Below, in pieces: positions 3,088-27,552 of a DNA stretch of 42,978 nt. This stretch comes from Bizionia sp. (GTDB lineage: Bacteria > Bacteroidota > Bacteroidia > Flavobacteriales > Flavobacteriaceae): contig JAHDHI010000039.1 of NCBI GenBank assembly GCA_020631395.1, positions 1 through 42,978 of the forward strand, written 5' to 3'. The notes under the pieces are model-generated. The model was not told the DNA's origin and made no database searches. It saw only the letters and a list, made by a program, of their open reading frames with translations. Position numbers and translations under genes: made by a program. Numbering within the stretch: position 1 is the stretch's first letter; each line of letters opens with the position of its first letter.

Positions 3088-3105
3088 TTACGGTAAAAAC
3101 CGTAA
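3088..3105. promoter_or_regulatory. TTACGGT-N4-ACCGTAA inverted repeat (candidate operator)
   Basis: This is a perfect 7-bp inverted repeat with an AAAA spacer, 18 bp in all. It lies 153 bp before the M43 protease start, in a region flanked by divergent genes, so it cannot be a terminator of either. The same arrangement, TTACGG-N6-CCGTAG, lies 147 bp before the M4 protease at 24210. That makes a transcription-factor site the best reading; the cognate factor is not identified. Confidence 0.55.
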
Positions 3106-3133
3106 ATTCAATAAAAATGCATTTTTATTGAAT
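3106..3133. promoter_or_regulatory. 28-bp perfect palindrome abutting the TTACGG dyad
   Basis: The left half is ATTCAATAAAAATG and the right half is its exact reverse complement CATTTTTATTGAAT, with no spacer. It begins at the base after the 3088-3105 dyad. It is AT-rich but symmetrical over its whole length. Divergent flanking genes argue against a terminator; an operator for a dimeric regulator or a cruciform-forming element is more likely. Confidence 0.45.
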
Positions 3134-3194
3134 AATAATCATAAAAAATATTAAAATAATGAGAAATTTTCATAGTTTTAAAATATACAATTGA

Positions 3195-3240
3195 AAATGC
3201 TCCCGCAAAACAATTAAAACTGCTCCCATAAAACCAATAC
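3195..3240 (+). repeat. two imperfect 23-bp direct repeats in the protease leader
   Basis: TGCTCCC followed by a CAAAAC- or TAAAACC-like stretch occurs at 3198 and again at 3221, a 23-bp period just upstream of the protease start at 3259. A related ACTCCCATG immediately precedes and includes the start of the paralogous protease at 27655. Its function is unknown; a regulator site or a leader element is possible. Confidence 0.3.
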
Positions 3241-3258
3241 TTATTTAAACATTTTACC

Positions 3259-5391
3259 ATGAAAAAAACCATTACTTTATCTCTATTGAGTTTTCTTTTC
3301 TTGTTTACAGTTTCAGCCCAACAGGAACGGAACTGTAAATCTATGGAAAACTTGGAGTACAGAAAACAATTGAATCCTCTTTTAGAGGAAAACATGAAAC
3401 AAATTGAAGCTTATACACAAAATAAGATTCAAGAAATGCAAGGACAACAAAATAAAATAGTCGGGGACATCATTACGATACCTGTAGTCGTGCACGTCAT
3501 CTATAGCAACTCCAATGAAAATATCAGTGATGCACAGATATTATCTCAAATGCAAGTGTTGAATGATGATTTCAGAAGAACGAATTCTGATGCTGACAAT
3601 ACTTGGTCACAAGCAGCAGACATGCAAATAGAGTTCTGTTTGGCATCTGTGGATGAAAATGGCAATGCGACGAATGGAATTACCAGAAAATCATCCACAA
3701 AAACCACTTGGGGAACCAATGATGCAATGAAAAAATCCTCACAAGGAGGAGTAGATCCATGGGATACCTCGCAATACCTAAATATGTGGGTATGCAACAT
3801 AGGAGGCGGAATCCTTGGGTATGCACAGTTCCCGGGAGGAAGTGCAGCAACCGATGGAATTGTGATGGGGCCTAATTACTTTGGAAGCAAAAATGGTGGG
3901 TCAGGATTTTATTTGTCAGCACCTTTTGATTTGGGTAGAACGACAACACATGAAATAGGACACTTTTTAAATTTGCGCCACATTTGGGGAGATGGAGGAT
4001 GTGGAGTTGACGATTTTGTATCCGATACCCCAGAATCCGATGCCTCCAATGGAGGGTGTGCCACTACGCATGTCTCTTGTGGGTCTGTAGACATGGTACA
4101 AAACTATATGGACTATAGTGATGATTCCTGCATGAACCTATTCACGCAAGGACAAAAAGATAGAATGAGGGTAACTCTGCTTCCAGGAGGAGTAAGAGCT
4201 AGTCTTGGAGCATCAACCAAATGTGATGGAGGTACTTCACCAACATGTGACGATGGTATCCAAAACGGAGATGAAACAGGTGTAGATTGTGGAGGGCCAG
4301 ATTGTCAACCATGTGATACGACGCCAACATGTGACGATGGTATCCAAAACGGAGATGAAACAGGTGTAGATTGTGGAGGGCCAGATTGTCAACCATGTGA
4401 TACGACACCAACATGTGACGATGGTATCCAAAACGGTGATGAAACAGGTGTAGATTGTGGAGGATCCGTTTGTGAGCCTTGTGATACGGCATGTGCGGAG
4501 AATGAAGTCAATGTTACAATTACTTTGGACAACTATCCAGAAGAAACGGCATGGGAAATAAAAGATTCTAATGGTACGACAGTGGCATCTGGATCCTATT
4601 CCACTTCAAATCCTGATGGTTCCACGGTTACAGAGGCATTATGCCTTCCAGATGGATGTTACGACTTTGTAATTACGGATTCTTATGGAGATGGCATTTG
4701 CTGTTCTTATGGAAATGGCTCATATGCTGTTACTGGAGCAGCTGGTACTTTGGCCTCAGGCGGTGATTTTGCAAGCTCTGAAACGACCAGTTTCTGTCTA
4801 GGCGATGCTGTTCCTACTTGTACAGATGTAACGGTATCCATTAAATTGGACAACTATCCGGAAGAAACGGCTTGGTCGCTTGTCGATTCCAATGGAGCAA
4901 CAGTGGCTTCAGCTAGTTACTCTACGTCGAACCCTGATGGTTCCACGGTTACGGAGACTGTATGCCTAGAAGATGGATGTTATGACTTTGTGATTACAGA
5001 TACGTATGGAGATGGCATTTGCTGTTCTTACGGAAGAGGCGAGTATACTGTGTCCGATGGATCGGGAACTTTGGCTTCGGGAGGTTCTTTTGGAAGTTCT
5101 GAATCCACCAACTTCTGTATAGGTAACACAAGAACTGCAGGAGAGGTGAGAACGGTGAATTTCAACAACAACAATTTCACCATGCATCCAAACCCTGTGA
5201 ATGACGTATTGAACGTTAAATTGAAAGGAGACCTTGAAGCGACTTATAGAATTGTAAACATGATTGGGCAAACCATTGCCAATGGTAATTTGACTGGAGA
5301 GATAAATGTAGCAGACCTTAAAGGAGGAATGTACTTTGTTGAAATCAATGATGGCGTGGCGACAATGACCAAAAAGTTTATTAAACGATAA
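3259..5391 (+). CDS. secreted M43-family (pappalysin/cytophagalysin-like) zinc metalloprotease with T9SS sorting tail
   Basis: This 710-residue precursor has a signal peptide (about 1-20, ending SAQQ) and a pro-region to about residue 60. The M43 catalytic domain (about 65-320) carries the metzincin zinc site HEIGHFLNLRH at 231-241, with Glu232 as the catalytic base and a following Met-turn region around QNYMDY. Three 28-residue Cys-rich repeats of the type CDDGIQNGDETGVDCGG follow at 328-411, then two roughly 105-residue repeats ending SYGDGICCSYG...NFC (about 412-622). A T9SS type A sorting domain closes the protein (about 641-710, PNPVNDV to KKFIKR). It should be exported by Sec, then moved across the outer membrane by T9SS and released or surface-anchored. 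The catalytic half is paralogous to the protease at 27655. A strong terminator follows. Confidence 0.93.
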   Translation: MKKTITLSLLSFLFLFTVSAQQERNCKSMENLEYRKQLNPLLEENMKQIEAYTQNKIQEMQGQQNKIVGDIITIPVVVHVIYSNSNENISDAQILSQMQVLNDDFRRTNSDADNTWSQAADMQIEFCLASVDENGNATNGITRKSSTKTTWGTNDAMKKSSQGGVDPWDTSQYLNMWVCNIGGGILGYAQFPGGSAATDGIVMGPNYFGSKNGGSGFYLSAPFDLGRTTTHEIGHFLNLRHIWGDGGCGVDDFVSDTPESDASNGGCATTHVSCGSVDMVQNYMDYSDDSCMNLFTQGQKDRMRVTLLPGGVRASLGASTKCDGGTSPTCDDGIQNGDETGVDCGGPDCQPCDTTPTCDDGIQNGDETGVDCGGPDCQPCDTTPTCDDGIQNGDETGVDCGGSVCEPCDTACAENEVNVTITLDNYPEETAWEIKDSNGTTVASGSYSTSNPDGSTVTEALCLPDGCYDFVITDSYGDGICCSYGNGSYAVTGAAGTLASGGDFASSETTSFCLGDAVPTCTDVTVSIKLDNYPEETAWSLVDSNGATVASASYSTSNPDGSTVTETVCLEDGCYDFVITDTYGDGICCSYGRGEYTVSDGSGTLASGGSFGSSESTNFCIGNTRTAGEVRTVNFNNNNFTMHPNPVNDVLNVKLKGDLEATYRIVNMIGQTIANGNLTGEINVADLKGGMYFVEINDGVATMTKKFIKR
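4240..4491 (+). repeat. three tandem 84-bp coding repeats
   Basis: Each unit encodes 28 residues beginning PTCDDGIQNGDETG and containing four cysteines and several acidic residues. Units start at 4240, 4324 and 4408. By eye, units 1 and 2 differ at one base in 84, while unit 3 diverges in its last third. This indicates very recent duplication or ongoing copy-number change. A single related unit exists in the paralogue at about 28638. Confidence 0.9.
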
Positions 5392-5434
5392 TATTAATTA
5401 GTCTTTAATATATAACCAACCAACTATCTGAGAA

Positions 5435-5467
5435 AGTCCCGATTCAATAGAATCGGGGCTTTTTTTA
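5435..5467 (+). terminator. rho-independent terminator of the M43 protease gene
   Basis: The stem CCCGATTC / GAATCGGG has an AATA loop (5438-5457), extended by A-T and G-C pairs outside and followed by a run of T. It sits 43 bp after the stop codon. Confidence 0.85.
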
Positions 5468-5646
5468 TTTAGAAAACCAATTTATGGCTAAAAGCTATGT
5501 TCTACCTATTTACGAAAGAGTAGATGGTTAAGTACTCAAAATGGATAAGAATAGAAGTTTCTATGGATATGGAGGCGTTTTTTTCGTCAAATTTGAAAAA
5601 CCCACTAGTGAGAATGAAATGAACAAATAAGATATGCTACATCGTT
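5468..5646. other. intergenic stretch with one doubtful 29-codon frame
   Basis: Between the two terminators there is no convincing gene. A plus-strand frame at 5541-5630 (MDKNRSFYGYGGVFFVKFE...) has a start and stop and a somewhat protein-like composition, but no recognisable family and no clear promoter. It may be a gene remnant or chance. Confidence 0.2.
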
Positions 5647-5679
5647 AAAAAACAAGCATTTATTAAAGGCTTGTTTTTT
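5647..5679 (-). terminator. terminator of pheS
   Basis: A perfect 11-bp inverted repeat AAAAAACAAGC / GCTTGTTTTTT with an 11-base loop ends 9 bp beyond the pheS stop. Read on the minus strand it gives a hairpin followed by a U-run. Confidence 0.7.
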
Positions 5680-5688
5680 AGATACCTA

Positions 5689-6717
5689 TTACAAAGCACT
5701 TTTAAATTGTTCTAAAAAGCGAACATCATTTTCACTCAACAAGCGAATGTCGCTTATTTGATGCAATAGCATTGCTATACGGTCAATTCCTACTCCAAAG
5801 GCAAAACCAGAATATTCGTTGGAGTCTATTTTGCAATTTTCCAAGACATTGGGATCTACCATTCCACAGCCTCCAATTTCCAACCAACCAGTTCCTTTGG
5901 TTATCTTATGATCTGTATCGGTTTCCAACCCCCAATACACATCTATTTCCGCGCTAGGCTCAGTAAACGGGAAGTAGGACGGGCGCAACCTGATCTTGGA
6001 TTTTCCAAAAAGCTCGGTTGTAAAGTATTGCAAGGTTTGCTTTAAATCTGCAAAGCTCACATCTTTATCTATGTAAAGCCCTTCCACTTGATGGAAAAAA
6101 CAATGGGAACGTGCCGAAATGGCTTCGTTTCTATATACTCTTCCAGGAGAGATGGTGCGTATTGGAGGAGGATTGTTTTCCATATAGCGTACTTGTACGG
6201 AGCTTGTGTGCGTACGTAGTAGTATATCTGGATTTGTTTGTATGAAAAACGTGTCCTGCATATCTCTAGCGGGATGATACTCCGGAAGATTCAAAGCTGT
6301 AAAGTTATGCCAATCGTCTTCTATTTCCGGGCCTTCGCTCACATTGAATCCTATGCGGGAAAAAATGTCCGTAATTTGGTTTTTCACCAACGAAATGGGA
6401 TGACGAGCACCCAATGCGATAGGTTCCCCTGGGCGAGACAAATCTCCAAGGACACCTTTGTCTTCTTCATTGGATTCCAATTCACTTTTCAATGCAGCTA
6501 CTTTTTCTTCTGCCGTCTTCTTAAGTTTGTTTATGGTCTGACCAAATTCTTTCCTTTGCTCGTTCGCCACATTTTTGAATTCGGCGAAATAGTCGTTCAG
6601 CAATCCTTTCCTACCTAAGTATTTTATGCGGAAAGCTTCAACCTCTTCTTTGGATTGTGCTTTGAATGCTTCTGCTTCTGTGATGAGCTCCTTTATCTTG
6701 TCTATCATGGTGGTCAT
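5689..6717 (-). CDS. pheS: phenylalanine--tRNA ligase alpha subunit
   Basis: PheS charges tRNA-Phe as part of the alpha2beta2 cytoplasmic synthetase. The 342-residue length is normal (the E. coli protein has 327). An N-terminal coiled-coil tRNA-binding arm (about 1-90, rich in K and E) precedes the class II catalytic core. The core contains the segment GPEIEDDWHNFTALNLP, the motif 2 region RTISPGRVYRNEAISARSH and the motif 3 glycine-rich FAFGVGIDRIAML. An alternative start three codons in (MIDKIKEL) is about equally good. A -7-like TAAATTTG lies just upstream. The beta subunit gene is not in the window, as is usual when pheS and pheT are separate in Bacteroidetes. Confidence 0.97.
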   Translation of the reverse strand: MTTMIDKIKELITEAEAFKAQSKEEVEAFRIKYLGRKGLLNDYFAEFKNVANEQRKEFGQTINKLKKTAEEKVAALKSELESNEEDKGVLGDLSRPGEPIALGARHPISLVKNQITDIFSRIGFNVSEGPEIEDDWHNFTALNLPEYHPARDMQDTFFIQTNPDILLRTHTSSVQVRYMENNPPPIRTISPGRVYRNEAISARSHCFFHQVEGLYIDKDVSFADLKQTLQYFTTELFGKSKIRLRPSYFPFTEPSAEIDVYWGLETDTDHKITKGTGWLEIGGCGMVDPNVLENCKIDSNEYSGFAFGVGIDRIAMLLHQISDIRLLSENDVRFLEQFKSAL

Positions 6718-6730
6718 TGTAAAATGATGG

Positions 6731-6738
6731 CAAATTTA
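6731..6738 (-). promoter_or_regulatory. candidate -7 element of the pheS promoter
   Basis: TAAATTTG on the minus strand matches the Bacteroidetes -7 consensus TAnnTTTG exactly. It lies 13 bp before the pheS start codon, which would give a very short leader. No TTG is found at the standard 19-21 bp spacing upstream, which lowers confidence. Confidence 0.35.
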
Positions 6739-6758
6739 GTGATTTTATGGATAAAAAA

Positions 6759-6782
6759 ACGCCTTCAAGAGCATGAAGGCGT
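6759..6782 (-). terminator. terminator of the lipocalin-like lipoprotein gene
   Basis: The stem ACGCCTTCA / TGAAGGCGT has a 6-base loop. On the minus strand it is followed by seven T. It lies 22 bp beyond the stop of the 6805-7227 gene and separates it from pheS. Confidence 0.85.
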
Positions 6783-6804
6783 CAAATTTATTGGAGATGA
6801 ACAA

Positions 6805-7227
6805 CTATTGTCTTTTATACACCTCTTTGTACGTTGTGGTGGTGGACCCTTCTGTATCGCTATATTCCAAATAAAAGGTGTCTTCTTCGAAAACAGGTTC
6901 CTGAGATTCAGTTTCCCCTTCAATGGTAATGTTGTAGATGGATCCATTTTTTGTCCAAGTACCGCTTGTAGTTTCCTCCAATTCACAAGTTCCATTTACT
7001 TCGTCGTAATTGGACCCAGAATATGCCCCGTTTGCTGAGTAGATCAAAGTTTCCTCGGTGTCACATGGTTCCAAGGTCACTTCCTCCCCATTTTCATAGG
7101 ACTTGAAGTATTTCCACGTTCCAATGATGGAATCCATAGGTTCTGGCGGCATGTCGTCGTCTTTTTGAGGACAAGCCATTAGTGTAGTCGCTAGAGCGAA
7201 AAGTAGTGGTAATTTTGCTTTTTTCAT
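6805..7227 (-). CDS. lipocalin-like domain lipoprotein
   Basis: This 140-residue protein has a type II signal peptide with lipobox TLMAC, so Cys19 should be lipidated. The mature part starts with an acidic PQKDDD stretch and then IIGTWKYFKSYENGEEV, the first strand pattern of the small Bacteroidetes 'lipocalin family' proteins. Two cysteines (in EPCDTEE and GTCELEE) could pair. It is probably surface- or periplasm-exposed; its ligand is unknown. The family assignment rests on the G-x-W start and the beta-rich length, not on a catalytic motif. Confidence 0.7.
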   Translation of the reverse strand: MKKAKLPLLFALATTLMACPQKDDDMPPEPMDSIIGTWKYFKSYENGEEVTLEPCDTEETLIYSANGAYSGSNYDEVNGTCELEETTSGTWTKNGSIYNITIEGETESQEPVFEEDTFYLEYSDTEGSTTTTYKEVYKRQ

Positions 7228-7283
7228 TGTTTTTTATTTTAAGATTAATTCCTTCAATGCATCAAACAACATACCAAAAGCAT

Positions 7284-7640
7284 CTAATCTATGTACTTTG
7301 TCTCTAAAAAATAGTTTACTATGGCTTCTTTCATAAGGATGCTTTGTTCCCCAGCTTTTAGGTGTGGCAATTCTTCCTTTATCGTATAGTGAGGCCAACC
7401 ATCTTCATCGACAAAATCGAATTCATAATAACCATAGGGTTGTAGTAATTTGCATATGGCAATGTGCATTAAATCCAATTTGTGATCCTTTTTGAACTTG
7501 CGTTCCAGTTGTCCCAATTCTTGTATGCCTATCAAGTAGATTATGGCATCCAAATCCAATGTATCCCCTTCTGCAAATTGATTTGATAGTTTCTTTACTA
7601 CCATTTCCCAACGTTCTTTTAATTCTTGATCTCTAGACAT
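7284..7640 (-). CDS. conserved hypothetical protein
   Basis: A soluble 118-residue protein with no signal or membrane segment. It begins MSRDQELKERWEMVVKKL and contains the notable stretches LDLDAIIYLIGIQELG and HIAICKLLQPYGYYEF. I recognise it as a small protein conserved in Flavobacteriaceae but know no function for it. The 56-bp gap to the lipoprotein gene suggests possible co-transcription. An exact TAnnTTTG element lies upstream at 7718-7725. Confidence 0.75.
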   Translation of the reverse strand: MSRDQELKERWEMVVKKLSNQFAEGDTLDLDAIIYLIGIQELGQLERKFKKDHKLDLMHIAICKLLQPYGYYEFDFVDEDGWPHYTIKEELPHLKAGEQSILMKEAIVNYFLETKYID

Positions 7641-7717
7641 ATTTGTTTTCCATCTTTTAATTCCGTTTTAAGCTAAACTGCAACGGAAATCTTTTTTGAT
7701 TGTAAAAATGACAAGGG

Positions 7718-7725
7718 CAAAGTTA
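7718..7725 (-). promoter_or_regulatory. candidate -7 element for the 7284-7640 gene
   Basis: TAACTTTG on the minus strand matches TAnnTTTG and would give a leader of about 70 nt. A TTG partner at 19-21 bp is not present. Confidence 0.3.
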
Positions 7726-7882
7726 GTTATTTTCAAATCATGACCACTTGGCCTTTCGAATAAAGATTTTTGGAAATTCTATGAATTTTGCTTTTGGATT
7801 GACTAGGATGCAATTATTTAAAAAAAGATTCGTTTTTTATATGCTATTAAATTGTGTAGGTTTACACATTAAATGCATTCTT

Positions 7883-8401
7883 ATGAGTATTATAGATATT
7901 GTTTTGGCTGCGCTTCTGCTGTTTGGATTGGTTCGTGGATTCATGAAGGGACTCTTTGTGGAAATAGCTTCGCTCGTTGCGTTGGTTGGCGGAGTTTATG
8001 GGGCCATACATTTTAGCAACTTTGTCGCATCTTATTTGGAAAGCAAGACCGAATGGAGTGAGCAAACCATAAACGTCACAGCTTTTGCCATTACATTCGT
8101 GGTAATTATCGTGGCGATATCCTTGGCGGGAAAGGCTTTGACCAAGCTTGCCGATTTTGCTGCTTTGGGCATTTTGAACAAACTGCTTGGTGGTATTTTT
8201 GGAGCTCTTAAAATTGGTTTGATCCTGAGTGTAGTTCTTATCGTCTTTAACAAGATGAACAGTACGATTGCTTTTATCGATGAGGATGACATGAAAGACT
8301 CCATTTTATACGAACCTGTAAAATCGTTGGCACCTATGATTTTTCCAAGTATCATCAATGGTGGGGAAATAGAAGGAAAAGAAGAGGAGACGAAAGCTTG
8401 A
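7883..8401 (+). CDS. CvpA family integral membrane protein
   Basis: From the ATG at 7883 the product has 172 residues: MSIIDIVLAALLLFGLVRGFMKGLFVEIASL is the classic CvpA N-terminus, followed by four predicted membrane segments and a short acidic tail. The frame is open upstream to 7748, but that extra peptide has no family resemblance, so the later start is preferred. CvpA proteins are inner-membrane proteins tied to colicin V production in E. coli and to envelope stress and bile resistance in other species. The biochemical role is unclear. The stop codon is only 3 bp from the stop of the converging batE gene, so no terminator fits between them. Confidence 0.88.
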   Translation: MSIIDIVLAALLLFGLVRGFMKGLFVEIASLVALVGGVYGAIHFSNFVASYLESKTEWSEQTINVTAFAITFVVIIVAISLAGKALTKLADFAALGILNKLLGGIFGALKIGLILSVVLIVFNKMNSTIAFIDEDDMKDSILYEPVKSLAPMIFPSIINGGEIEGKEEETKA

Positions 8402-8404
8402 TGA

Positions 8405-9154
8405 CTAAAGTTCCTTTATGTCGTCATTGGCAATCCAACCCGTCTTACCGTCTGCAAGTTTGATTTTTTTCCAATTGCTTACGGTATCTAGAATTTGAAC
8501 TTTGGTTCCTTCATGTAGGGTGAATGCTTCATCACTTCTTAGGTTAGGTTCGCTCTTTACTTGACTCTCTTGTGCAAAGACAATGGCTGCCTTGTCTTTT
8601 TGTGCCAAGTTATAATTGTGAAATGTAAAGGCCAAGGCAAAGCATGCGAAGAATATGGAAGCTAGACTACTTATGAAGTACAATCTTTTCTGAACTGTGG
8701 AATAAGTGAAATAGTATAGCAAAAACAATGTCACAAAACCAAATACCAAGATTACCGATAGTTTTGCCCAAGTGTCAAAACTGAAAGTGTTGGTCAAGTT
8801 CTTTATGAATTTCTTGATGCCAATCTCTGGCAATACGTCTATGGCATCTATTTTCATATTGTTTGCAAATGCCATGTTGTTCTTTATTTCAGAATCATTT
8901 GGAGCCAATCTTGATGCCTTTTCATAATAATATATGCTTGGTGCAATATGATTTAGCTTGTAATGCGCATTTGCGATGTTGAAATACAACTCGGCAGAAT
9001 GTTTGTCGCCTTGCAATATGGCATTGTACTTGTCCAAGGCTTCTGCGAATTTACCATCGTTGTACAAGGTGTTGGCCTGGTCGAACAACGCATTGTCTTG
9101 AGCTGTAAGACTGCTGGTTAAAATGAAGAATAATAGGTATGTTAATGCTTTCAT
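8405..9154 (-). CDS. batE: BatE: TPR and SH3-like domain membrane protein
   Basis: This 249-residue product has a signal peptide (about 1-19, ending LTAQ), TPR repeats (about 20-100; YFNIANAHYKL, SIYYYEKASRLAPND), two membrane segments (about 130-150 and 158-180) and a C-terminal bacterial SH3 domain (about 190-249, ending GKTGWIANDDIKEL). It is the last gene of the bat operon. BatE is believed to act with BatA-D at the envelope. It follows batD with a 40-bp gap. Confidence 0.9.
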   Translation of the reverse strand: MKALTYLLFFILTSSLTAQDNALFDQANTLYNDGKFAEALDKYNAILQGDKHSAELYFNIANAHYKLNHIAPSIYYYEKASRLAPNDSEIKNNMAFANNMKIDAIDVLPEIGIKKFIKNLTNTFSFDTWAKLSVILVFGFVTLFLLYYFTYSTVQKRLYFISSLASIFFACFALAFTFHNYNLAQKDKAAIVFAQESQVKSEPNLRSDEAFTLHEGTKVQILDTVSNWKKIKLADGKTGWIANDDIKEL

Positions 9155-9194
9155 TGCTTTGATATTTAATAGTTTCCTTGGAAGAAAGACAAAA

Positions 9195-10967
9195 CTATCG
9201 TATTTGCCTGTCTATTAAATTAATGGTTTGTGCTGCCTTGTCGTAATCTTGTTGCATGGTTACCGTTGTAATTGGGGTGTATCTTGCCAGTTCACAACTT
9301 TCCAAAATGTTGTCGAATTCCGAGATTGTCGATGGGTCTACTTGGCGTTCTGCCAACAAGATCTTTATCTTGTCTTTGCTTAAATCGCTAGTTTCTATGT
9401 TAAGTTTTGCCTTCAAGTAATTATGTAGCGCTTTTTCCAATGCGACATAGAATGCTTCTTTTTGGCCCAAGGATTTTTTTGCTTCCCCCAAATAGCGTTT
9501 GGCTAGCCTGTCTGCCTTTCTCAATCTGTTTCCTACCACATCGGCATCTCGTTCTGCTTTTTTTCTTCGGAATGCGATGGCCAAAGGAATGGCTAGAAAA
9601 GGAGCTAGCAAACTACTCCAGAAGGCTGTGGATTTGAAGAAGTGAGTGCTCTTTTTTGATACTAGATTGGCTTCTGTCTTTACAAATGCAAATTGATCGT
9701 TGCTTAAAAGTACTGGTTGCTTTCCTGTACTTGAAGTTGCTGCATTATTGTCCGAATTGGCATAGCTCGGGCCTTCGAGGACATCTATCACGGTTTCTTC
9801 GGAAGAGATGCGTTTGTAACTTTCCGTTTTCAAGTCGAAATAGGAAAAGGAAATGCTTGGTATTGGATATTTGCCCTTGTATTGTGGAACTATGGTATAG
9901 CTATCCGAGATGCTTCCTTGCATTCCTGCCAAGTTGGTTCTCACGGATTCCTTATGTTCGGGTTCATATACTTCCAGAGAACTCGGTACGTTTAGTTTGG
10001 GCAACTCAAACAACTTTAGGTTTCCTTTCCCTGAAACCTCTACCTTGGCTTGTAATGATTCCGTTGCATTCAATTCTGTTTTAGAGGTCATCAATCTAAA
10101 ATTAAACTCGCCAACGGCACCAGTAAAGTCAAGCGGCTTTCCTGTTTCTGGCAATGGCTTCACATTAATGGTTCTATTTCCTGCCGAAACGGTTCTGTGA
10201 ACTTGCGTCATTAGACGCCCTCCAAATATGTCACGACGTTTTGTGGGCACGTCTACGGTGATGTCGAGACTTAATGGCTCTATGTCCAGTTTTCCTGTTT
10301 TTTGAGGGTATAAAACGGACTTGCGGAGTACGACATAGCGATAGTCCTCCCCCTTATAGGTACCATTTAGTATCTTAAGTCCCTTGATGTCTATGTTCTG
10401 ACTCCAGAAATCATCAAATTTTGGGTTGTCTATCTCTCTCCAATTGCTAACGCCTGTGTTTGGGGAGACGTATAGTTTGTAGACGACCGTTATGGCTTCG
10501 TTCAAATACGGATTTGAGTTTGAGACCTCTGCTACCAGATGTATGTTCTCGGTAGCAAGATATTCTGCATTGTCACCGTTTTTTGGTTTGTCTACGGCCT
10601 TGGTGACCGTTATGGTTATTGGGGATGTTTTGTAAACTTGTCCATCGACATTTATGGTTGCTTGCTTTATGGGGAAGCTCCCTCTTTTTTTTGGTGCTAG
10701 AAAATAACTGTATGTTTTTTGAAAGCTCTTTTTACCATTTATCCAAGAAGTGCTCACGGATTGGTTTGGACCACCAACTACGGTGAAGTTGTCAAAATTG
10801 GGGGGATTGAAGTTGTCTCCATCCTTATTCATTTGAAAGTCGACGCGCAAACGCTCGTTGATGCCCAGTTTCTTCTTGCTTACCTTGGTTTCAAACTTTA
10901 CTTGTGCGGAGAGCAAACTCGTGCTCAAAACAAGGAATAGTATGGATATGTGTTTGATTAGTTTCAT
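9195..10967 (-). CDS. batD: BatD: oxygen-tolerance membrane protein
   Basis: The 590-residue protein starts with a signal peptide ending LLSAQ. A long periplasmic region of several Ig-like beta domains follows (KFETKVSKKKLGINERLRVDF at the start is the typical BatD opening). There is a single membrane segment near residues 445-465 followed by RRKK, and a cytoplasmic alpha-helical tail of about 120 residues (RLAKRYLGEAKK...). Size and layout match Bacteroidetes BatD. It lies between batC and batE on the same strand, 73 bp after batC. Confidence 0.93.
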   Translation of the reverse strand: MKLIKHISILFLVLSTSLLSAQVKFETKVSKKKLGINERLRVDFQMNKDGDNFNPPNFDNFTVVGGPNQSVSTSWINGKKSFQKTYSYFLAPKKRGSFPIKQATINVDGQVYKTSPITITVTKAVDKPKNGDNAEYLATENIHLVAEVSNSNPYLNEAITVVYKLYVSPNTGVSNWREIDNPKFDDFWSQNIDIKGLKILNGTYKGEDYRYVVLRKSVLYPQKTGKLDIEPLSLDITVDVPTKRRDIFGGRLMTQVHRTVSAGNRTINVKPLPETGKPLDFTGAVGEFNFRLMTSKTELNATESLQAKVEVSGKGNLKLFELPKLNVPSSLEVYEPEHKESVRTNLAGMQGSISDSYTIVPQYKGKYPIPSISFSYFDLKTESYKRISSEETVIDVLEGPSYANSDNNAATSSTGKQPVLLSNDQFAFVKTEANLVSKKSTHFFKSTAFWSSLLAPFLAIPLAIAFRRKKAERDADVVGNRLRKADRLAKRYLGEAKKSLGQKEAFYVALEKALHNYLKAKLNIETSDLSKDKIKILLAERQVDPSTISEFDNILESCELARYTPITTVTMQQDYDKAAQTINLIDRQIR

Positions 10968-11040
10968 TTTAAATGTACGATTCTAGATTTTGAACTTGCA
11001 ATTTGTGAAATAAATCGAAATTCGTAAGTCTCAATTCGTT

Positions 11041-13634: not shown

Positions 13635-13649
13635 AATGTATTCTTTTAT

Positions 13650-18349: not shown

Positions 18350-18368
18350 TTTTGATTTTTTAAACTCA

Positions 18369-18808: not shown

Positions 18809-18913
18809 TCAAGGTCACAAAGTGCCTTAGTTTGTCGTTTTTTGTGTAAGTAGAAGTAGAATTAGGAGAAAATAATTAACAATTAAAACGAATTTTATTT
18901 CGTAGAAGACAAT

Positions 18914-20295: not shown

Positions 20296-21032
20296 TTAGA
20301 AGGTTTGGTACTTTGGTAGTTGTTCTGACTTTTGCATGCATAGTAGTTGTTTTGTCTTGTAAGAAAGAAGATAAAGTTGTAGTTGTCGACAATCCTAAAA
20401 TATTGAGTTACGTGATAGATTCAGAAAGGCAAGAATTGAAAATGTATTGGAAAGATGAAAGTGATTCCAATTACTTTAATTTCAAACGTCTTGAATTGGC
20501 TTTGAAAAAAGAAAATAAAAAATTGACATTTGCTACCAATGGAGGGATGTACAACAAGGACGCCTCTCCACAAGGACTTTATGTGGAAGATTACATCGTG
20601 CATTCAAAAATAGATACCTTACAAAATGGGGACGGCAATTTTTATATGCAACCCAATGGCATCTTTTATTTAATGGACAAAGGATTGTCCAATGTGGTTG
20701 CTACTTCAAGCTTTATGGTAAATGAAACCATTAGATATGCTACGCAATCTGGTCCAATGTTGCTGATTGAGGGAGAGATGCATCCGAAATTCAATATGGG
20801 TTCTACCAATGTGAACATTAGAAATGGTGTTGGAGTGCTTCCGGATGGAAGTCTATTGTTTGCGATGTCCAAAGAGAAAATCAACTTCTACGATTTTGCT
20901 TTGTACTTTAAGCAGAATGGCTGTGAAAATGCGTTGTATTTAGATGGTTTTGTATCCAAGACCTATTTGCCATCTCAAGGGTGGGAACAATTAGATGGGA
21001 ATTTTGGGGTTATTATAGGAGAAACAGAATAA
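20292..21032 (+). CDS. phosphodiester glycosidase (NAGPA/DUF2233) lipoprotein
   Basis: This 246-residue lipoprotein has signal lipobox VLSC with Cys23. The mature part has the DUF2233/NAGPA core: FATNGGMYNKDASPQGLYVED, the QSGPMLL segment, RNGVGVLPDGSLLFAMS, and CENALYLDGFVSKTYLP near the end. NAGPA-type domains cleave sugar phosphodiesters such as uncapped GlcNAc-1-phosphodiester; bacterial members are exported. Here it is probably in the periplasm or on the outer membrane. Its start overlaps the stop of the HD gene. Confidence 0.88.
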   Translation: MIRRFGTLVVVLTFACIVVVLSCKKEDKVVVVDNPKILSYVIDSERQELKMYWKDESDSNYFNFKRLELALKKENKKLTFATNGGMYNKDASPQGLYVEDYIVHSKIDTLQNGDGNFYMQPNGIFYLMDKGLSNVVATSSFMVNETIRYATQSGPMLLIEGEMHPKFNMGSTNVNIRNGVGVLPDGSLLFAMSKEKINFYDFALYFKQNGCENALYLDGFVSKTYLPSQGWEQLDGNFGVIIGETE

Positions 21033-21053
21033 GCTTATCTTTAAATTAGTGGC

Positions 21054-22187
21054 ATGATCAATAAACGTCTTTTAATTAAAAACTTGCTCGCTCATAATGA
21101 CGAGAATAGTTTTTATGATAAAAAACGTAAGATAGACATAGGACAAAAAGAAGGTAAAGCCAAATTTTTAAAGCACATATGCGCTCTTTCCAACAGCAAC
21201 CCCAAGAACAATTCGTTCATCGTCATCGGTGTGGAAGATGAGGACAATGAAATAATAGGAGTAGATTTTTTTGACGACAGTAAAATTCAAAACCTCATAA
21301 ATGCCTATTTGACGAACCCTCCAATGGTACAATATGAAAATGTGCCTTTTCCACATTTGCCGGATCACAAAGTCGTAGGTTTGGTTACAATAAGGCCAAT
21401 AGATGAATTGACGGCGCTACGAAAAAACATTTGGAAATATTATGGAGGTACCGTCTTTTTTAGAGATGGAAGCATAAGTATGCCCAAGGTATTTGAAAGT
21501 GACATTAAGGATGTGAACTCTAAAATTGTCGCTGCCATAGAAAATCATTCGCAAAACAACATAGAATATACATTGGATGGTGTTTTCGATTTCATGGAAA
21601 AGAGGGAGGATTACAATCCTCAGTACAAGGTGTTCAAGGAATATTTCGTAGTCTGCTGGTCTGGGCAAAAAAAGGAAGTCAAGGAAGAGTTGTTTTATTC
21701 AAGGGTGGACATAGAACTCATAAATGAACAAGTGCGATTGTTTTTTTCAGCTCTGGATGAGGTTTCCATAGCGTTTGACGAGGATAGTTTCAAAATAGTG
21801 GAATATGTGAATCTAGGGCTCCAAAACGCATACAAATACTATCCTTTGGAAGAAACGATCATTAGCTTTGGGAATAATGCCAATTACAACATAGATACCA
21901 CTTTGATTTTCGAAGCCCCGCAATTCGATAAAAAAATACTGCACCATATATACAATGCAAACAATGCCTTGTTGGAGAAACTCAAAAAGGGAATGGCGTT
22001 GAATGCGACTGAAACACGAGACCTGGAAAACCTACCTGCAACGTATTTAATTTGTTATCTCAATCTATTTCACAATGCCATTGATAAACTTAGGGAAGCC
22101 AAGCCTTTTTTAAAAGCCTTTGGTAGCAATGTATATATGAGATATAAAGAATCCATTAGGATTTTGAGGAAAGTAAAGTATAGTTAG
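21054..22187 (+). CDS. AlbA_2 (Schlafen-like) putative DNA/ATP-binding protein
   Basis: The N-terminal part (about 1-120) has the AlbA_2 / Schlafen AlbA_2 pattern: FLKHICALSNSNPKNNSFIVIGVEDEDNEIIGVDF, a DDSKIQNLINAYLTNPP stretch and then HKVVGLVTIRP. The C-terminal 250 residues (of 377) match nothing I know, though they look globular and helical with many aromatics. AlbA_2 proteins are often called ATP-binding transcriptional regulators; some occur in defence loci. It begins 21 bp after the glycosidase gene and is likely part of the same transcript. A bidirectional terminator follows. No helicase, nuclease or other defence gene lies beside it. Confidence 0.75.
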   Translation: MINKRLLIKNLLAHNDENSFYDKKRKIDIGQKEGKAKFLKHICALSNSNPKNNSFIVIGVEDEDNEIIGVDFFDDSKIQNLINAYLTNPPMVQYENVPFPHLPDHKVVGLVTIRPIDELTALRKNIWKYYGGTVFFRDGSISMPKVFESDIKDVNSKIVAAIENHSQNNIEYTLDGVFDFMEKREDYNPQYKVFKEYFVVCWSGQKKEVKEELFYSRVDIELINEQVRLFFSALDEVSIAFDEDSFKIVEYVNLGLQNAYKYYPLEETIISFGNNANYNIDTTLIFEAPQFDKKILHHIYNANNALLEKLKKGMALNATETRDLENLPATYLICYLNLFHNAIDKLREAKPFLKAFGSNVYMRYKESIRILRKVKYS

Positions 22188-22200
22188 CTTTTATAAGGAA

Positions 22201-22226
22201 AAAGGCGTTTCAATCGAAACGCCTTT
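22201..22226. terminator. bidirectional terminator between converging operons
   Basis: A perfect 11-bp stem AAAGGCGTTTC / GAAACGCCTTT with an AATC loop lies 13 bp after the AlbA_2 gene and 25 bp after the minus-strand HhH gene. The minus-strand U-run is stronger (five T). Confidence 0.88.
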
Positions 22227-22251
22227 CATGTCTTAGGGTATTTTAGAGAAT

Positions 22252-22830
22252 CTATTTGCCTCCATCCAATTGATCTTGCCAATCTTTCAATTCTTTCCAT
22301 TTGCCTTCTGAAGCCAATTGCGATTGCTTTGGCCAAGTCCCAGGCTTGTGAATTTTGAAGCGCTCTCCTCCACTGTCCAAGACAGATTGGCATTTCTCTA
22401 CGCTGCAAACTGCCAAATCTGCCCAAGTTTTTACATCATGGTTATGAAATAGCTCTTGTATTTTTGGTCCGATACCCTCAATTATCGTCAGGTCGTTGTC
22501 TTTGATGCGTTTTCCATAAGCAGCTTTGGCAGCTTCGGCATCAAAGACAACAGCACTGGTCGTTGTTGCTTCTGCAAGGTTGGAGGCCATCATGGTAGAT
22601 CCGATACCTCCATTTCCAGCACCAGATGCTATGCCACTGTGTCCTGCGTCATTGTTTGAATCCTTGTTGGTTCTGCAATCTTCGAGATCCGATTCCAAAA
22701 TTGCGATTCTGTTCTTAAAGACATTCACGTCTATGTCATTGTTATTTTTGTTTCCTAATAGTCTACCTAGCAAGTACCCTAAAATTGCACTTATGATTCC
22801 TACTACCAATGGGATTAATATACACCACAT
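22252..22830 (-). CDS. membrane-anchored helix-hairpin-helix domain protein
   Basis: This 192-residue protein has an N-terminal membrane helix (about 3-22; a Gly-rich ILGYLLGRLLG end), a short coiled coil (about 35-55), a low-complexity Gly/Ala/Thr linker (about 65-105), and a C-terminal helix-hairpin-helix-like domain: DLTIIEGIGPKIQELFHNHDVKTWADLA, ending with KPGTWPKQSQLASEGKWKELKDWQDQL. The C-terminal block is conserved across Bacteroidetes proteins of this kind. It is paired with an OmpA-domain gene (16 bp away). The domain is DNA-binding-like, but an envelope location is suggested by the membrane anchor, so I would not infer DNA binding. Confidence 0.8.
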   Translation of the reverse strand: MWCILIPLVVGIISAILGYLLGRLLGNKNNNDIDVNVFKNRIAILESDLEDCRTNKDSNNDAGHSGIASGAGNGGIGSTMMASNLAEATTTSAVVFDAEAAKAAYGKRIKDNDLTIIEGIGPKIQELFHNHDVKTWADLAVCSVEKCQSVLDSGGERFKIHKPGTWPKQSQLASEGKWKELKDWQDQLDGGK

Positions 22831-22846
22831 AATTTTTTTGTTTAGT

Positions 22847-23782
22847 TTAGTTAATAGTTACTACGACTCTTCTGTTTTTTGCTTGTCCTTCTTTAGTGTT
22901 ATTGTCTGCGATGGGTCTGTCGGGGCCTTTCGAAGAGGTCTTTATCTTGGATTCGGGTATTCCATTGTCCACGAAGTACTCCTTGACGAAGTTTGCTCTG
23001 TTTAGACCTAGTTGAATATTGCTCGATCGGTCTCCTGTATTGTCTGTATGTCCTGTGATTTGTATGGTTGTGTTATCGGTTTTGTCGACATATTTGGATA
23101 TGTTGGCTACCTTTTCGCGTTGTTCTGGAGTAAGGCTGATGGTTGTGTTGCCTATTTCGAAATACATTATCAAAGGGTTGGCCTTAATGTCTTTTTCCAA
23201 GGCCTTTAATGCGGCTTTGGCTGATGTGTCATCTGCGTCGGCAGTGTTCAGCTTATATCTGATGGGGCCAAAGTAAATGTCTTTGACATCAGGAATCAAG
23301 TTGTCATTAACTTTGCCTTGGATGTTTATGGATTTTGAGGAGGCTCCATTGGAAATGAAATAGTTTTTAACGGCATTTGCCCTTGCCAGTCCCAAATTTG
23401 GAAAAGCAGTGTTGTTTTTTTCCTGACTAGTGTAATGGCCATAAATGTTTACATGCTTGTTCGGGTTGTTGTTCAGGTAGTTGGTCAATTTTCGTACCTC
23501 GTTGTTCAAATTATTGGAAACAGGATTGAGAATGGAAAAATTGGAGGCTTTGAAGTTGAAGTTGTCGTTAGTATTGAAAGCCATGCCGCTATTGGAATCA
23601 ATAATGGAAAAGGCTTCTTTCGTTGCTGCTTTGACTTCCGGTGATTTCGGAACCGTATTCTCGGTTTCTGTAATTTTATTCGCTTCTTCATAGCATGGTT
23701 TGCAGCACAAATAATAATACAAGAGAGTCCCTAGAATAATGATCAGTAAAATCCCTAAAAGATAACTGCTTTTTTTACTCAT
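22847..23782 (-). CDS. OmpA-family protein with two OmpA-like domains
   Basis: A 311-residue protein anchored by an N-terminal helix (about 7-26, followed by CCKPC). Two tandem OmpA-like peptidoglycan-binding domains follow. The second (about 200-311) is canonical: TTIQITGHTDNTGDRSSN, then LGLNRANFVKEYFVDNGI and AKNRRVVVTIN, with the expected Asp and Arg ligands for diaminopimelate. The first (about 70-165; HVNIYGHYTSQEKN, LGLARANAVKNYFI) has lost the TD of GHTD and is probably degenerate. The N-terminal anchor is inner-membrane-like rather than a beta barrel. Upstream is a 427-bp divergent region shared with the M4 protease gene. Confidence 0.88.
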   Translation of the reverse strand: MSKKSSYLLGILLIIILGTLLYYYLCCKPCYEEANKITETENTVPKSPEVKAATKEAFSIIDSNSGMAFNTNDNFNFKASNFSILNPVSNNLNNEVRKLTNYLNNNPNKHVNIYGHYTSQEKNNTAFPNLGLARANAVKNYFISNGASSKSINIQGKVNDNLIPDVKDIYFGPIRYKLNTADADDTSAKAALKALEKDIKANPLIMYFEIGNTTISLTPEQREKVANISKYVDKTDNTTIQITGHTDNTGDRSSNIQLGLNRANFVKEYFVDNGIPESKIKTSSKGPDRPIADNNTKEGQAKNRRVVVTIN

Positions 23783-24044
23783 TGCATTGTGTGTTTTTGG
23801 TTAGTGACTATAAGTTATTAAATTATATATAAACTTTTGATAATTTATGGGCTAAAATGTAGTTTTTTATGTTAAAACTCGATGAAAAACACAAAACAGA
23901 TGGTTAAATTTTTTATTTGAGATAGCCATCAGATGAAACTTGTATAAAGCATTTAAAAAGAGATGGGTATGAAAACGCTTTATGAGGGGATTTGAAAATA
24001 CATTTTGTCAAAAATGCTTTTTTTACGTTAAATCATAAAAACGA

Positions 24045-24062
24045 TTACGGGAAAAACCGTAG
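24045..24062. promoter_or_regulatory. TTACGG-N6-CCGTAG dyad upstream of the M4 protease
   Basis: The same half-sites and 6-bp spacing as at 3088-3105, including the AAAAA in the spacer, with one base of the right arm changed. It lies 147 bp before the start codon, against 153 bp in the M43 gene. Both lie in divergent regions, which argues for an operator rather than a terminator. Confidence 0.55.
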
Positions 24063-24133
24063 TATCCAGAGAATGAATTTCATTTGATTGCACTTTGTCG
24101 AAAAAAATAGAAACCGACTAATCATTCTACTTG

Positions 24134-24154
24134 GTTTTGATACATTTATTGCGA
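24134..24154 (+). promoter_or_regulatory. 21-bp element shared by the M4 and second M43 protease genes
   Basis: GTTTTGATAC-ATTTATTGCGA occurs identically here and at 27596-27616, 55 and 38 bp before the respective start codons. TACATTTA inside it resembles the -7 consensus TAnnTTTG with its last base changed, so this may be the core promoter. A TTG at the usual spacing is lacking in both. Confidence 0.5.
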
Positions 24155-24209
24155 TTTTCTTATTAAAAATCACAATAAATTGATTAATCAACCAAAACCT
24201 CATTAAATT

Positions 24210-27200
24210 ATGAAGAAACAAGTACTGAGAGCTTTTGCCATTCCTATGCTTTTTGCACTAACCTGTGCATCTAGTTATGGCCAAGAACAAAAGAACGATC
24301 AACGAAATACAAACGGAGAACCTAGTTTGATGGTATTTCAAGAAGAATCATCTTATAGATTGCAAGATGCCAATGCTATTTTTAAAAATCAATTAAGCAC
24401 AGGAGAGAACGATGGGTTCGTTCAGATTAAATCTGAATCGGATGAACTAGGTTTTACACATCAAAAATACCAACAACAATACAACGGAATCAATGTGGAA
24501 TTCGCAACGTATACCTTGCATGCCAGAAATGGAAAGGTTAGCACCATGAGTGGGGAGTTTTATGACATAAAGGGAGTAAACACTACGCCAGTATTGACAA
24601 AGAAGCAAGGGTTACAGGCAGCGATAAACCACATAGGAGCTCAAAGCTATCTATGGGACAATGTAGAAGTCGCCAACCAAATGGGATATTCCAAGCCAGA
24701 AGGTGAATTGGTGTTATTGCCAAATATGGAAGGCCAAAGCAAAGAAACCTCCAAGAATGCACAATTGGCTTATAAATACGATATCTATGCGGCACAGCCA
24801 TTGAGTAGGGGTGTTTTATACATTGACGCAGTTACAGGAGCACCGTTGTTTTACAATAGTACGATAAAGCACCTGGACGAGCACGCGAATTCTTCAGTAA
24901 ACCTAGGGTATGTCGAAGGAGGTTGTGAAACAGGAGAGACCACTGCCTTTAGAGCGGCCGGGACTGCTGCTACCAGATACAGTGGTTCAAGAACGATCAC
25001 AACAAGAGTAATTGGATCCAGCTATGCATTAAGAGACAATACAAGAGGAGGTGGCGTTAATACTTACAACAGTGGAGGGCAAAACAGTTATCCGCAAACC
25101 AACTTTACAGATGCAAACAATGATTGGACTGCAGCGGAATTCGACAATGCCAACAAGGACAATGCTGCATTGGATGCACATTGGGGAGCAGAAGTAACTT
25201 ACGATTACTGGCAAGCAATACACTCCAGAAACAGTTTTGATGGTTCAGGGGCAGCTATCAACAGTTGGGTGCATTATGACAACCAACCAGGAGGAGCAGG
25301 ATACGACAATGCATTCTGGAATGGTAGTGTGATGACTTATGGAGATGGTTCTTCCAATGGAAATGAAGGAAATGGTTTCTTCGATGCATTGACATCCTTA
25401 GATGTAGCTGCCCATGAAATTGGACATGCGGTTACATCCAATACTGCAAACTTGGCTTACCAAAGAGAATCTGGTGGGTTGAATGAAGGATTTTCAGATA
25501 TATGGGGAGCAGCAGTAGAGCATTATGCCAAAGGAAATGGAAACAATGCCGCACCTGGAGCAAATGTATGGTTAATAGGAGATGAGATAGACAGGAGATC
25601 TGGTTCTGTAGGGTTGCGATCCATGAGTAATCCAAATGATAGAAACCAACCAGACACCTATGGAGGTACATATTGGAAAAATCCTAATTGTGGTGTGCCA
25701 ACGCAAAGTAATGACTATTGTGGCGTACATACGAATTCAGGCGTGTTGAATTTCTGGTTTTACTTAAGTGTTGTTGGTGGAAATGGAACAAACGACATAG
25801 GAAATGCATATAGTGTTTCTGGAATAGGTATGGACAAGTCTGCAAAAATTGCCTTTAGAACCTTGAACAACTACCTGTCTGCAAACTCTACATTTGCCAA
25901 TGCTAGAACTGGTGCAATACAAGCTGCAAAAGATTTGTATGGAGCAGGAGGAGCAGAAGAACAAGCGGTAACGAATGCTTGGCATGCAGTGGGAGTAGGA
26001 GCAGCCTTTTCTGGAGGAGGTGGAGGAAACAACTACTGTAGTTCCAATGGAAACAATACCAATGACGAGTACATTTCTCGAGTACAGTTAAATACCATTG
26101 ACAAAACATCAGGGATAGGTACTACAAGTACTGGATATTCAGATTTCACTACGACATCCACAGGTTTGTCAAAAGGAGTGTCAGTTACCATTACGGTGAC
26201 TCCAACTTGGACAGATACACTATACAATGAAGGTTACAGTGTATGGATAGATTACAATCAAGATGGAGATTTTACAGATGCTGGAGAGCAAGTGTGGACT
26301 AAGGCAGCATCTCAAACCACTCCTGTAAGTGGGACGTTCACCGTACCAGCTGGGGCGGCAGATGGTGAGACAAGAATGAGAGTATCTATGAAATACAACG
26401 GCGTTCCAACTGCTTGTGAGAGTTTTCAATATGGAGAAGTCGAAGATTATACCGTAAGCATAGGAGGAGCAGTTACGGATACGACCAAGCCGGTAATTAC
26501 CTTGGTTGGTGATGCAACTGTGAGCATTACGGAAGGAACTGCATATACAGATCAGGGAGCGACTGCTACGGATGATGTAGATGGGAATTTGACATCTAGC
26601 ATTGTAACGACAGGTTCAGTAGATGCAAACACTGTAGGGGCATATACCATTCGTTATAATGTGAGCGATGCAGCTGGCAATGCCGCAGATGAGGTGACAA
26701 GAACTGTTAATGTAGAAGAAGCAAGCCCAGTGACATATTGTAGTTCCAATGGAAACAATACCAATGACGAGTATATTTCCAGAGTACAAATAGGTTCTAT
26801 CGACAATACATCTGGAGTTGGCAGCACAAGTACGGGGTATTCTGACTTTACTTCGTTGTCGGCAAATTTGACCCAGGGAGCATCGGCTACCATTACGATT
26901 ACACCAACTTGGACAGGAACCGTATACAATGAAGGTTACGCAGTGTTCATAGATTACAACAGAGATGGTGATTTTGCAGATTCAGGTGAAACCGTTTGGA
27001 CGAACTCGCCATCTAGAACTACGCCTGTTAGTGGTACGTTTACAGTGCCGGCTGGAATTTCAACAGGGGTAACAAGAATGCGTGTATCTATGAAATACAA
27101 TGCAATTCCTACGTCTTGCGAAAGTTTCCAATGGGGAGAAGTTGAAGATTATAAAGTTGACATTGGTGCATCTAGCATTGCTCAAACACTTACTATTGAA

Positions 27201-27434
27201 GACGGCAATTCTATCGAAATATACATCTATCCAAATCCAGTAAGAGGAAATGTATTGTATGTAAAGTCAAATGAGAGTATGGGGTACATTATTGTGAATG
27301 CTTTAGGGCAACAAGTTGCAAAGGGAGCTTATATTACCAACGGGATTAACGTAAGTGGATTGGAACCAGGTTTGTATGTGATTCAATTCAATGCAAACAA
27401 TAAAACGATTACCAAAAAGTTCGTTAAACAATAA
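24210..27434 (+). CDS. secreted M4-family (thermolysin-like) metalloprotease with GEVED repeats and T9SS tail
   Basis: This 1074-residue precursor has a signal peptide (about 1-24), an FTP/PepSY-type propeptide (about 60-215), and an M4 catalytic domain (about 255-605). The catalytic domain carries HEIGH at 402-406, the third zinc ligand Glu426 in [10 protein letters not shown] exactly 24 residues after the first His, and the transition-state His in [15 protein letters not shown]. Two GEVED domains (about 609-752 and 843-985) flank a DUF5011/HYR-like Ig domain (about 756-837; [19 protein letters not shown]). A T9SS type A sorting domain ends the protein (about 1004-1074). It should be secreted by Sec then T9SS and activated by removal of the propeptide, digesting external protein. 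A terminator follows. Confidence 0.95.
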
Positions 27435-27460
27435 TTCACTAACCAACCAAATTATTGTTG

Positions 27461-27492
27461 AAGCCTCGATGTAAGTCGAGGCTTTTTCTTTT
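27461..27492 (+). terminator. terminator of the M4 protease gene
   Basis: The stem AAGCCTCGA / TCGAGGCTT has a TGTAAG loop and is followed by a T-rich tract. The same stem and loop recur exactly at 29888-29911 after the next protease gene. Confidence 0.88.
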
Positions 27493-27506
27493 AGATAATG
27501 AGTTGA

Positions 27507-27552
27507 TTACGGGAAAAATCATCCTTTTCATAGAATGATTTTTTTTTCAATG
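27507..27552. promoter_or_regulatory. TTACGG half-site merging into an AAAAATCAT/ATGATTTTT hairpin
   Basis: TTACGGGAAAAA matches the left 12 bases of the 24045 dyad, but the right half is TCATCC instead of CCGTAG. The A-run and TCAT instead pair with ATGATTTTT further on, a 9-bp stem with a long loop followed by more T. It may be a decayed operator, a second terminator, or both. Confidence 0.3.

Follow-up and report, generated by a model that had tools for sequence, protein, structure and literature searches.

Dyad sites and protease genes in the window

We analysed a 42,978-nt stretch of DNA from Bizionia sp. (the window; contig JAHDHI010000039.1 of assembly GCA_020631395.1, here C101), which belongs to a genome of 4.41 Mb in 120 contigs (G000), and followed an inverted repeat (the dyad) that lies upstream of its secreted protease genes and that we propose as a response-regulator binding site. 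The perfect dyad TTACGG-TAAAAA-CCGTAA (TTACGGTAAAAACCGTAA) occupies positions 3088-3105, 153 bp before the ATG at 3259 of a gene for a secreted M43 metallopeptidase with a C-terminal domain of the type IX secretion system (T9SS; 3259-5391, plus strand). A second dyad, TTACGG-GAAAAA-CCGTAG (TTACGGGAAAAACCGTAG; 24045-24062), lies 147 bp before the ATG at 24210 of a secreted M4 (thermolysin-type) metallopeptidase gene with GEVED and T9SS C-terminal domains (24210-27434, plus strand). The decayed dyad TTACGG-GAAAAA-TCATCC (27507-27524; TTACGGGAAAAA at 27507-27518) precedes a gene for a secreted M43 metallopeptidase, again with GEVED and T9SS C-terminal domains (27655-29862, plus strand). None of the three dyads is assigned a strand. 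On the other side of the first dyad, on the minus strand, lies a gene for a two-domain ATPase of a peptide-type ABC transporter (ABC_tran twice, oligo_HPY; 1368-3053). Its ATG nearly adjoins a -10-like box (TACATTTA; 3061-3068, minus strand) that stands 20 nt from the dyad core. All four genes were named from domain matches.

The original prediction had placed the two full dyads at these positions and distances and within divergent gaps; the former was confirmed and the gene map agreed with the latter. It had also described all three proteases as T9SS cargo, and each carried a Por_Secre_tail domain. The M43 and M4 families were borne out, and the third gene proved to be a second M43 member, i.e., of the same family as the first. 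The sequence at 27507 that had been read as a lone left half-site is indeed present; however, the congeners G001 and G002 hold a fuller dyad at the same place (TTACGG-TAAAAA-CCATAC and TTACGG-N6-CCATAA, respectively), and therefore the window copy is a degraded dyad. At the first site, the spacing between site and promoter that is enriched genome-wide points to the divergent ABC transporter rather than to the protease.

Placement and conservation of the dyad

Within the window alone, the number of dyads was unremarkable, as 16 of 100 shuffled sequences reached two matches at up to two mismatches. In G000, exact TTACGG-N6-CCGTAA occurred seven times, every spacer having an A/T core. The form TACGG-NWWWWN-CCGTA (TACGGNWWWWNCCGTA) occurred nine times exactly, compared with three for a reversed-letter control, and the congeners G001 and G002 held eight and nine sites of this type. 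With spacers of five or six bases (TTACGGN5-6CCGTAA), the excess in G000 was modest (eight compared with five for the reversed-letter control). The motif was not spread at random: one of 59 exact dyads in nine genomes was intragenic, compared with 14 of 15 sites of a sham pattern (found in 8 of the 11 genomes searched).

At six loci, the dyad was common to the window genome and both congeners. These were the gap between the ABC transporter and M43 genes (L058 in G001, L062 in G002), the M4 peptidase gene (L057 and L063; dyad 148-149 bp before the ATG), an M57 peptidase gene (dyad 158 bp upstream in all three genomes), the gap between a lepA-like gene (identified by eye) and a gene for an OMP_b-brl_3 outer-membrane protein, a gene adjoining that of a 174-aa membrane protein, and the end of a kinase-regulator operon, where a tandem dyad pair was found. 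Hence, the dyad was not absent before orthologous proteases, as its M43, M4 and M57 sites recurred throughout the genus. In G002, the gene orthologous to the first protease (L062:5298-6953) retains the T9SS tail and has no recognisable M43 domain. In the three-genome alignment, the dyad was almost unchanged while the flanks had diverged. That is, the dyad is set apart from chance by its placement, spacer and conservation rather than by its count.

A predicted small RNA gene beside the regulator gene

The most conserved copy of the dyad lies just downstream of a gene for a NarL/LuxR-type response regulator, with the operon end about 100 bp away. Here, tandem dyads stand behind the regulator gene and face a convergent DUF456 gene, and across the named genera this gap keeps the dyad, the box TAnnTTTG and a conserved stretch of about 110 nt. 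The stretch is predicted to encode a small RNA (sRNA) that is closed by a stem (ATCAAC/GTTGAT) and has a covarying terminator hairpin; both partners differ somewhere in 10 of the 20 pairs predicted. At seven loci, no match above the gathering thresholds of Rfam 15 was found at the sRNA, and L075 gave only weak, chance-type matches. A minus-strand match to Flavo-1 RNA (RF01705) in Lacinutrix sp. C3R15 (L129:33-117) is unrelated to the dyad-linked sRNA.

A model built from 22 sequences (R1) matched 86 of 249 genomes of the family at E<=0.01. Across the order, 4 of 196 genomes matched, all of them from this family, and none of the 12 listed genomes of a large genus, g152 (probably Flavobacterium), was matched. 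A close regulator (E<=1e-75) was present in 80 genomes, and a same-strand sRNA lay behind it in 77 of these at a median of 154 nt. Conversely, 75 of the 77 sRNA matches at E<=1e-3 lay behind a close regulator. Among the named regulators, the sRNA accompanied 33 of 35 with at least 57% identity and, at E<=0.01, none of 26 with 51% or less, although 22 of these sequences had built the model. The co-occurrence of regulator and sRNA, as well as the dyad averages given below, rest on hand-copied tables.

We then considered the promoters of 49 sRNA loci, comprising G000, 29 named loci and 19 of the 20 in a further set; L256, which has three copies, was read by eye, and L082, L085, L089, L095, L099 and L100 are not among the 49. 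The dyad was present in 48 of the 49 in a loosened form, in 32 with the TACGG/CCGTA core and in 28 in the strict form, and shuffling gave an expectation of 0.12. The distance from the dyad to the -10 box was 20-22 nt in 43 of the 48, and many promoters had a second dyad copy 22-23 bp further upstream. Spacer length was offset by the gap; i.e., sites with a 5-base spacer (N5) mostly stood 22 nt from the -10 box and those with a 6-base spacer (N6) 20-21 nt. Each sRNA contained 0-2 GGA motifs. A metagenome-assembled genome (G179; L256; L100:4834-5644) held three tandem sRNA copies, each with its own dyad. Two weak R1 matches in the window, behind the third protease (29831-29918, E 0.09; 29999-30101, E 0.08), were considered as further copies and taken as probably chance.

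The response regulator and its kinase

In the regulator orthologues, the receiver residues D12/D13, D66 and K123 were invariant or nearly so, including the phosphoacceptor Asp. The orthologue profile matched the full-length chains of RcsB, VraR, NarL and DesR in the PDB. A structural model of the regulator (mean pLDDT 90.8) comprised a receiver and a C-terminal four-helix domain (helices 165-175, 180-183, 191-204 and 212-221); its top match was RcsB, resembling the DNA-bound RcsB entries, with about 20% whole-length identity in the fold comparison. Judging from this predicted structure, which has both a receiver and a C-terminal helix-turn-helix (HTH), the regulator is of the NarL/LuxR type. 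The kinase carried TPR_12, HisKA_3 (just below the cut-off) and HATPase_c domains, and its TPRs apparently lie outside the cytoplasm, as suggested by a signal peptide and a membrane segment read by eye.

Promoter geometry and the genes preceded by the dyad

TTACGGN5-6CCGTAA occurred in 118 of the 249 family genomes and exceeded the control only in a subset. A search limited to the 6-base spacer yielded few sites beyond the genus because many genera use N5; therefore, we rejected the notion of a genus-specific, N6-only motif. The general form is T-D-Y-GG-N5/6-CC-R-H-A, which in the genus of the window becomes TTACGG-N6-CCGTAA. We read 88 intergenic dyads in all, 53 of them from eight genomes of other genera; L060 (intragenic and off-consensus, in G001) and L218 were left out. 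Around these 88 dyads, counted in both directions and with non-independent orthologues, TAnnTTT-type boxes peaked 20-23 nt from the dyad (36 boxes), and no other 4-nt bin held more than 16. TAnnTTTG is the sigma-A -7 box of a flavobacterium, according to one study (PMC9723704). In promoters of this near class, the dyad is centred about 43 bp before the proposed transcription start.

Correctly oriented peptidase genes lay within 360 bp of 13 of the 53 dyads in other genera, which is a raw count (M43, four; M12B, M14, S8 and M57, two each; C10, one). Peptidases make up a small fraction of any genome. Over all genomes, seven peptidase families were preceded by the dyad (M43, M4, M57, M12B, S8, M14 and C10). 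Among the 88 rows, the recurrent neighbours were the ABC transporter (10 rows, 7 beyond the genus), the locus of the 174-aa protein (9 and 6), the outer-membrane protein (6 and 3) and M57 (6 and 3). Many dyads had other or unnamed neighbours; 31 rows were unclassified, and several of these were lipoproteins.

A T9SS tail was found in the genes behind only three of nine named sites or decayed sites in G000; the T9SS C-terminal domain was present in several peptidases and was not found in M57, the ABC transporter, the outer-membrane protein or the 47-aa protein described below. The proposal that one regulator could coordinate secreted proteolysis was supported, whereas T9SS cargo did not hold as its defining trait; the scope is family-wide, with the sRNA and the two-component system at the centre.

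A 47-aa gene and an element shared with the sRNA

The dyad at the 174-aa protein locus actually precedes a small open reading frame (ORF), which encodes 47 aa in eight of nine orthologues and 50 aa in the ninth (L052:4375-4515, minus strand; orthologues in L054, L067, L180, L183, L201, L211, L217 and L225). The ORF heads a locus with genes for the 174-aa membrane protein and an alanine-dehydrogenase-like protein (identified by eye). Its product has a hydrophobic, export-type N-terminus, which ends in A-x-A in most genera besides that of the window, and a KIKIPTxG-like C-terminus; apparently, it is exported. Substitutions in the ORF favoured third codon positions (7/4/12 and 15/8/22). The gene was found in 102 of 249 genomes at E<=0.01. 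At E<=5.2e-8, for which 82 genomes were listed by hand, the gene and the close regulator were both present in 75 genomes, the regulator only in 5, the peptide only in 7 and neither in 162; this co-occurrence is partly due to the common descent of the genera.

We examined the upstream regions of the gene in 20 of the 102 genomes, hand-picked mostly among the high scorers. A loose dyad was present in all 20 at 102-117 nt before the ATG, with the core in 16, compared with an expectation of 0.08. The aberrant forms of the dyad before the sRNA (GGG-TTT-CCC or CCGCA/CCACA; L243, L249) recurred before the 47-aa gene (L293, L292). Site variants thus drift together within genomes, which implies one reader. 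In the same promoters (L274-L293), a repeated TTTTAACAT(N4-5)TTTAACATT stands between the dyad and the -10 box and is possibly a direct repeat for another factor; TGTTAAAA also occurs where the gap after the regulator gene begins.

The sRNA and the 47-aa leader have a sequence in common. TTAATTAA(N)TCCCT occurred 18 times in ten genomes (control 11), with six occurrences in the sRNA, nine in the 47-aa leader and three elsewhere, and in the same sense at both loci (for instance, sRNA loop L071:4842 and leader L180:2128). Because some of these loci had been inspected before the element was defined, its presence at both is partly by construction; what carries information is that only 3 of the 18 matches lie elsewhere. 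In each of the 20 leaders, TCCC stood 11-12 nt upstream of the ATG, and in the sRNA it occupied an unpaired loop of the consensus fold. This common sequence suggests an RNA decoy, in which the sRNA loop UUAAUUAA(N)UCCCU would mimic the leader at the translation start of the 47-aa gene and titrate its binder, as Rsm sRNAs titrate RsmA. We also considered a peptide-sensing circuit around this decoy, in which the 47-aa product would be the signal, or its precursor, for the kinase; the two-component system, the peptide and the mimic RNA would then tie secreted proteolysis to cell density or peptide supply. We regard this reading, peptide signal and decoy together, as unlikely. The genus of the window and Lacinutrix have diverged at the shared element, which weighs against a universal role.

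A proposed regulon and its alternatives

We consider it probable that the dyad is the upstream activating site of the linked response regulator and that it controls the sRNA and the 47-aa gene as well as proteolysis and the uptake of peptides. The sequence comparisons support the site, its geometry and conservation, the linkage of sRNA and regulator, and the membership of the regulon. From the linkage, co-occurrence and co-drift, we infer that the regulator binds the dyad, and a single protein may serve all sites. The position of the site suggests activation rather than repression. In our model, the phosphorylated regulator would bind the dyad as a dimer and recruit RNA polymerase to TAnnTTTG promoters of the near class. 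Its targets would be the sRNA right behind its own gene, the 47-aa, apparently exported protein with its downstream genes, peptidases of various families for which export is predicted, and the peptide-type ABC transporter together with the outer-membrane protein. The whole would form a regulon for extracellular proteolysis and peptide use.

Several observations weigh against this proposal. G109, G212 and G237 have the regulator and no detected linked sRNA. Pfam gives the regulator no HTH (no GerE) and the receiver only below threshold. The exact-dyad counts averaged 1.69 per genome with a close regulator (control 0.94) and 0.68 without one (control 0.82), in favour of the proposal; nevertheless, they were near the control in many regulator-bearing genomes, and G114, G135, G137 and G160 hold at least four exact dyads yet no close regulator. 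Several protease promoters, in which the -10 box and the site are 65-79 nt apart, fit the geometry less simply. Within the genus, the G002 orthologue of the first protease lacks the M43 domain, and three sites of G000 or G002 have no counterpart in the other genomes. In addition, HTH residues 168 and 182 track the N5 and N6 spacers. We dropped this as evidence of binding because one change on the regulator tree suffices; the shift from N5 to N6 being a single tree event, the coincidence is not independent support.

The alternative that survives best, although we rate it as unlikely, is that the dyad is genuine and bound by another factor, either a NarL-type paralogue or an unlinked DNA-binding protein, with the two-component system as a mere neighbour. 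Consistent with this, the regulator has four matches in G000 at E<=1e-20, G225 has a dyad in front of a 42% paralogue, four dyad-rich genomes have no close regulator, and no dyad-type site was found before the kinase-regulator operon in the loci inspected. However, the close regulator co-occurs with the sRNA (77 of 80) and with the 47-aa gene (75 of 80), and no sRNA stands beside the 26 more distant regulators.

A role in chromosome organisation or segregation (a parS-like site) would explain why the few copies per genome are nearly all in gaps. We find this very improbable, as the dyad lies at a fixed distance to -10 boxes, recurs before the same genes across genera and is scattered over many contigs without clustering. 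That the palindrome acts as RNA, through a hairpin terminator or a 5' leader structure, was suggested by one locus at which it extends into a long perfect hairpin (C19; L051) and by the one conserved copy between convergent genes. G002 (L064) no longer has the extended arms, and the convergent copy precedes, at constant spacing, a promoter and an sRNA with its own covarying terminator; most other copies lie upstream of genes, ahead of a promoter box. An RNA hairpin was therefore rejected on geometry and the lost arms, and we hold it to be extremely unlikely. Chance, or inherited likeness of the neighbouring and seemingly related M4 and third-protease promoters, agrees with the non-significant count within the window and is hardly credible, being contradicted by the recurrence in 20 of 20 and 48 of 49 promoters at two unlinked loci across genera (shuffled expectations 0.08 and 0.12).

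Comparison with known systems

GacS has a hybrid kinase layout, and the Rsm cascade controls secreted products, including proteases. The upstream activating site of GacA/UvrY-type regulators before the rsmX/Y/Z sRNAs is TGTAAG-N6-CTTACA (PMC4950607). The GacA-rsm system shares with ours a NarL/FixJ-type regulator, a dyad of 18 bp whose spacer has 6 bases, and an sRNA as a main target. However, the half-site differs and the spacer here is of 5 or 6 bases; instead of the hybrid layout, the kinase combines TPRs with a HisKA_3 core; and the sRNA, with few GGA motifs, is encoded next to the regulator, while the proteases carry the dyad themselves. Given these differences in the kinase, the sequence of the site and the number of GGA motifs, the present system is not a member of GacA-rsm and the likeness is one of logic.

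Rfp18, an sRNA of Flavobacterium psychrophilum, has at least three stem-loops and pairs with its targets, and its deletion lowers the mRNA of two metalloproteases, as described in PMC9723704. Like our candidate, it is a Flavobacteriaceae sRNA, and the same promoter type, TAnnTTTG, is described for that organism. Compared by its description, it is the nearest functional precedent.

The closest solved structures to the regulator are RcsB (the activator of the rprA sRNA), VraR, NarL, DesR and ComA, whose targets differ. The ComA box, TTGCGG-N4-CCGCAA, is a near look-alike of the dyad. PorX/PorY-SigP links two-component control to T9SS export in Bacteroidota and acts on secretion-machine genes; it is not of the NarL type. 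The present system resembles it in its two-component control and T9SS connection. Neither the dyad nor its variants were found in the open-access papers searched, some of which contain the two half-sites as loose strings, subscription journals being outside the scope.

Marine flavobacteria have a major part in breaking down protein and algal material, and to our knowledge the switch for their secreted proteases is hardly known. The analysis names a candidate regulator and an sRNA family, together with a site that can be searched for in any genome and a list of regulon members from several genera. Should the proposed leader mimicry prove real, Rsm-like decoy-RNA logic would have arisen separately in Bacteroidota.

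Further elements in the protease promoters

The M4 and third-protease promoters share a distal layout consisting of the dyad, a TCGAAAAA-bearing element and TACATTTA at 79 nt from the dyad core. Before the M4 gene, the second promoter element TTGCACTTTGTCGAAAAA (24088-24105, plus strand) aligned across the three genomes, and the -10-like box (24141-24148, plus strand) was kept in all three. Before the third protease, the counterpart ATGTTTTTAAACGAAAAA (27550-27567, plus strand) was identified in the three-genome alignment, and the -10-like box follows the decayed dyad at 27603-27610 (plus strand). Stretches similar to TTGCACTTTGTCGAAAAA were seen by eye 17 or 28 nt after other dyads. The general form TGCAYTTNNTCGAAAAA, between the dyad and the -10 box, also occurs by protease-side dyads in other genera and presumably resembles a LytTR-type site. 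Finally, a perfect 28-bp palindrome, ACGATACCGAATATATATTCGGTATCGT (27570-27597), which is imperfect in the congeners, lies directly upstream of the -10-like box in the third-protease promoter.

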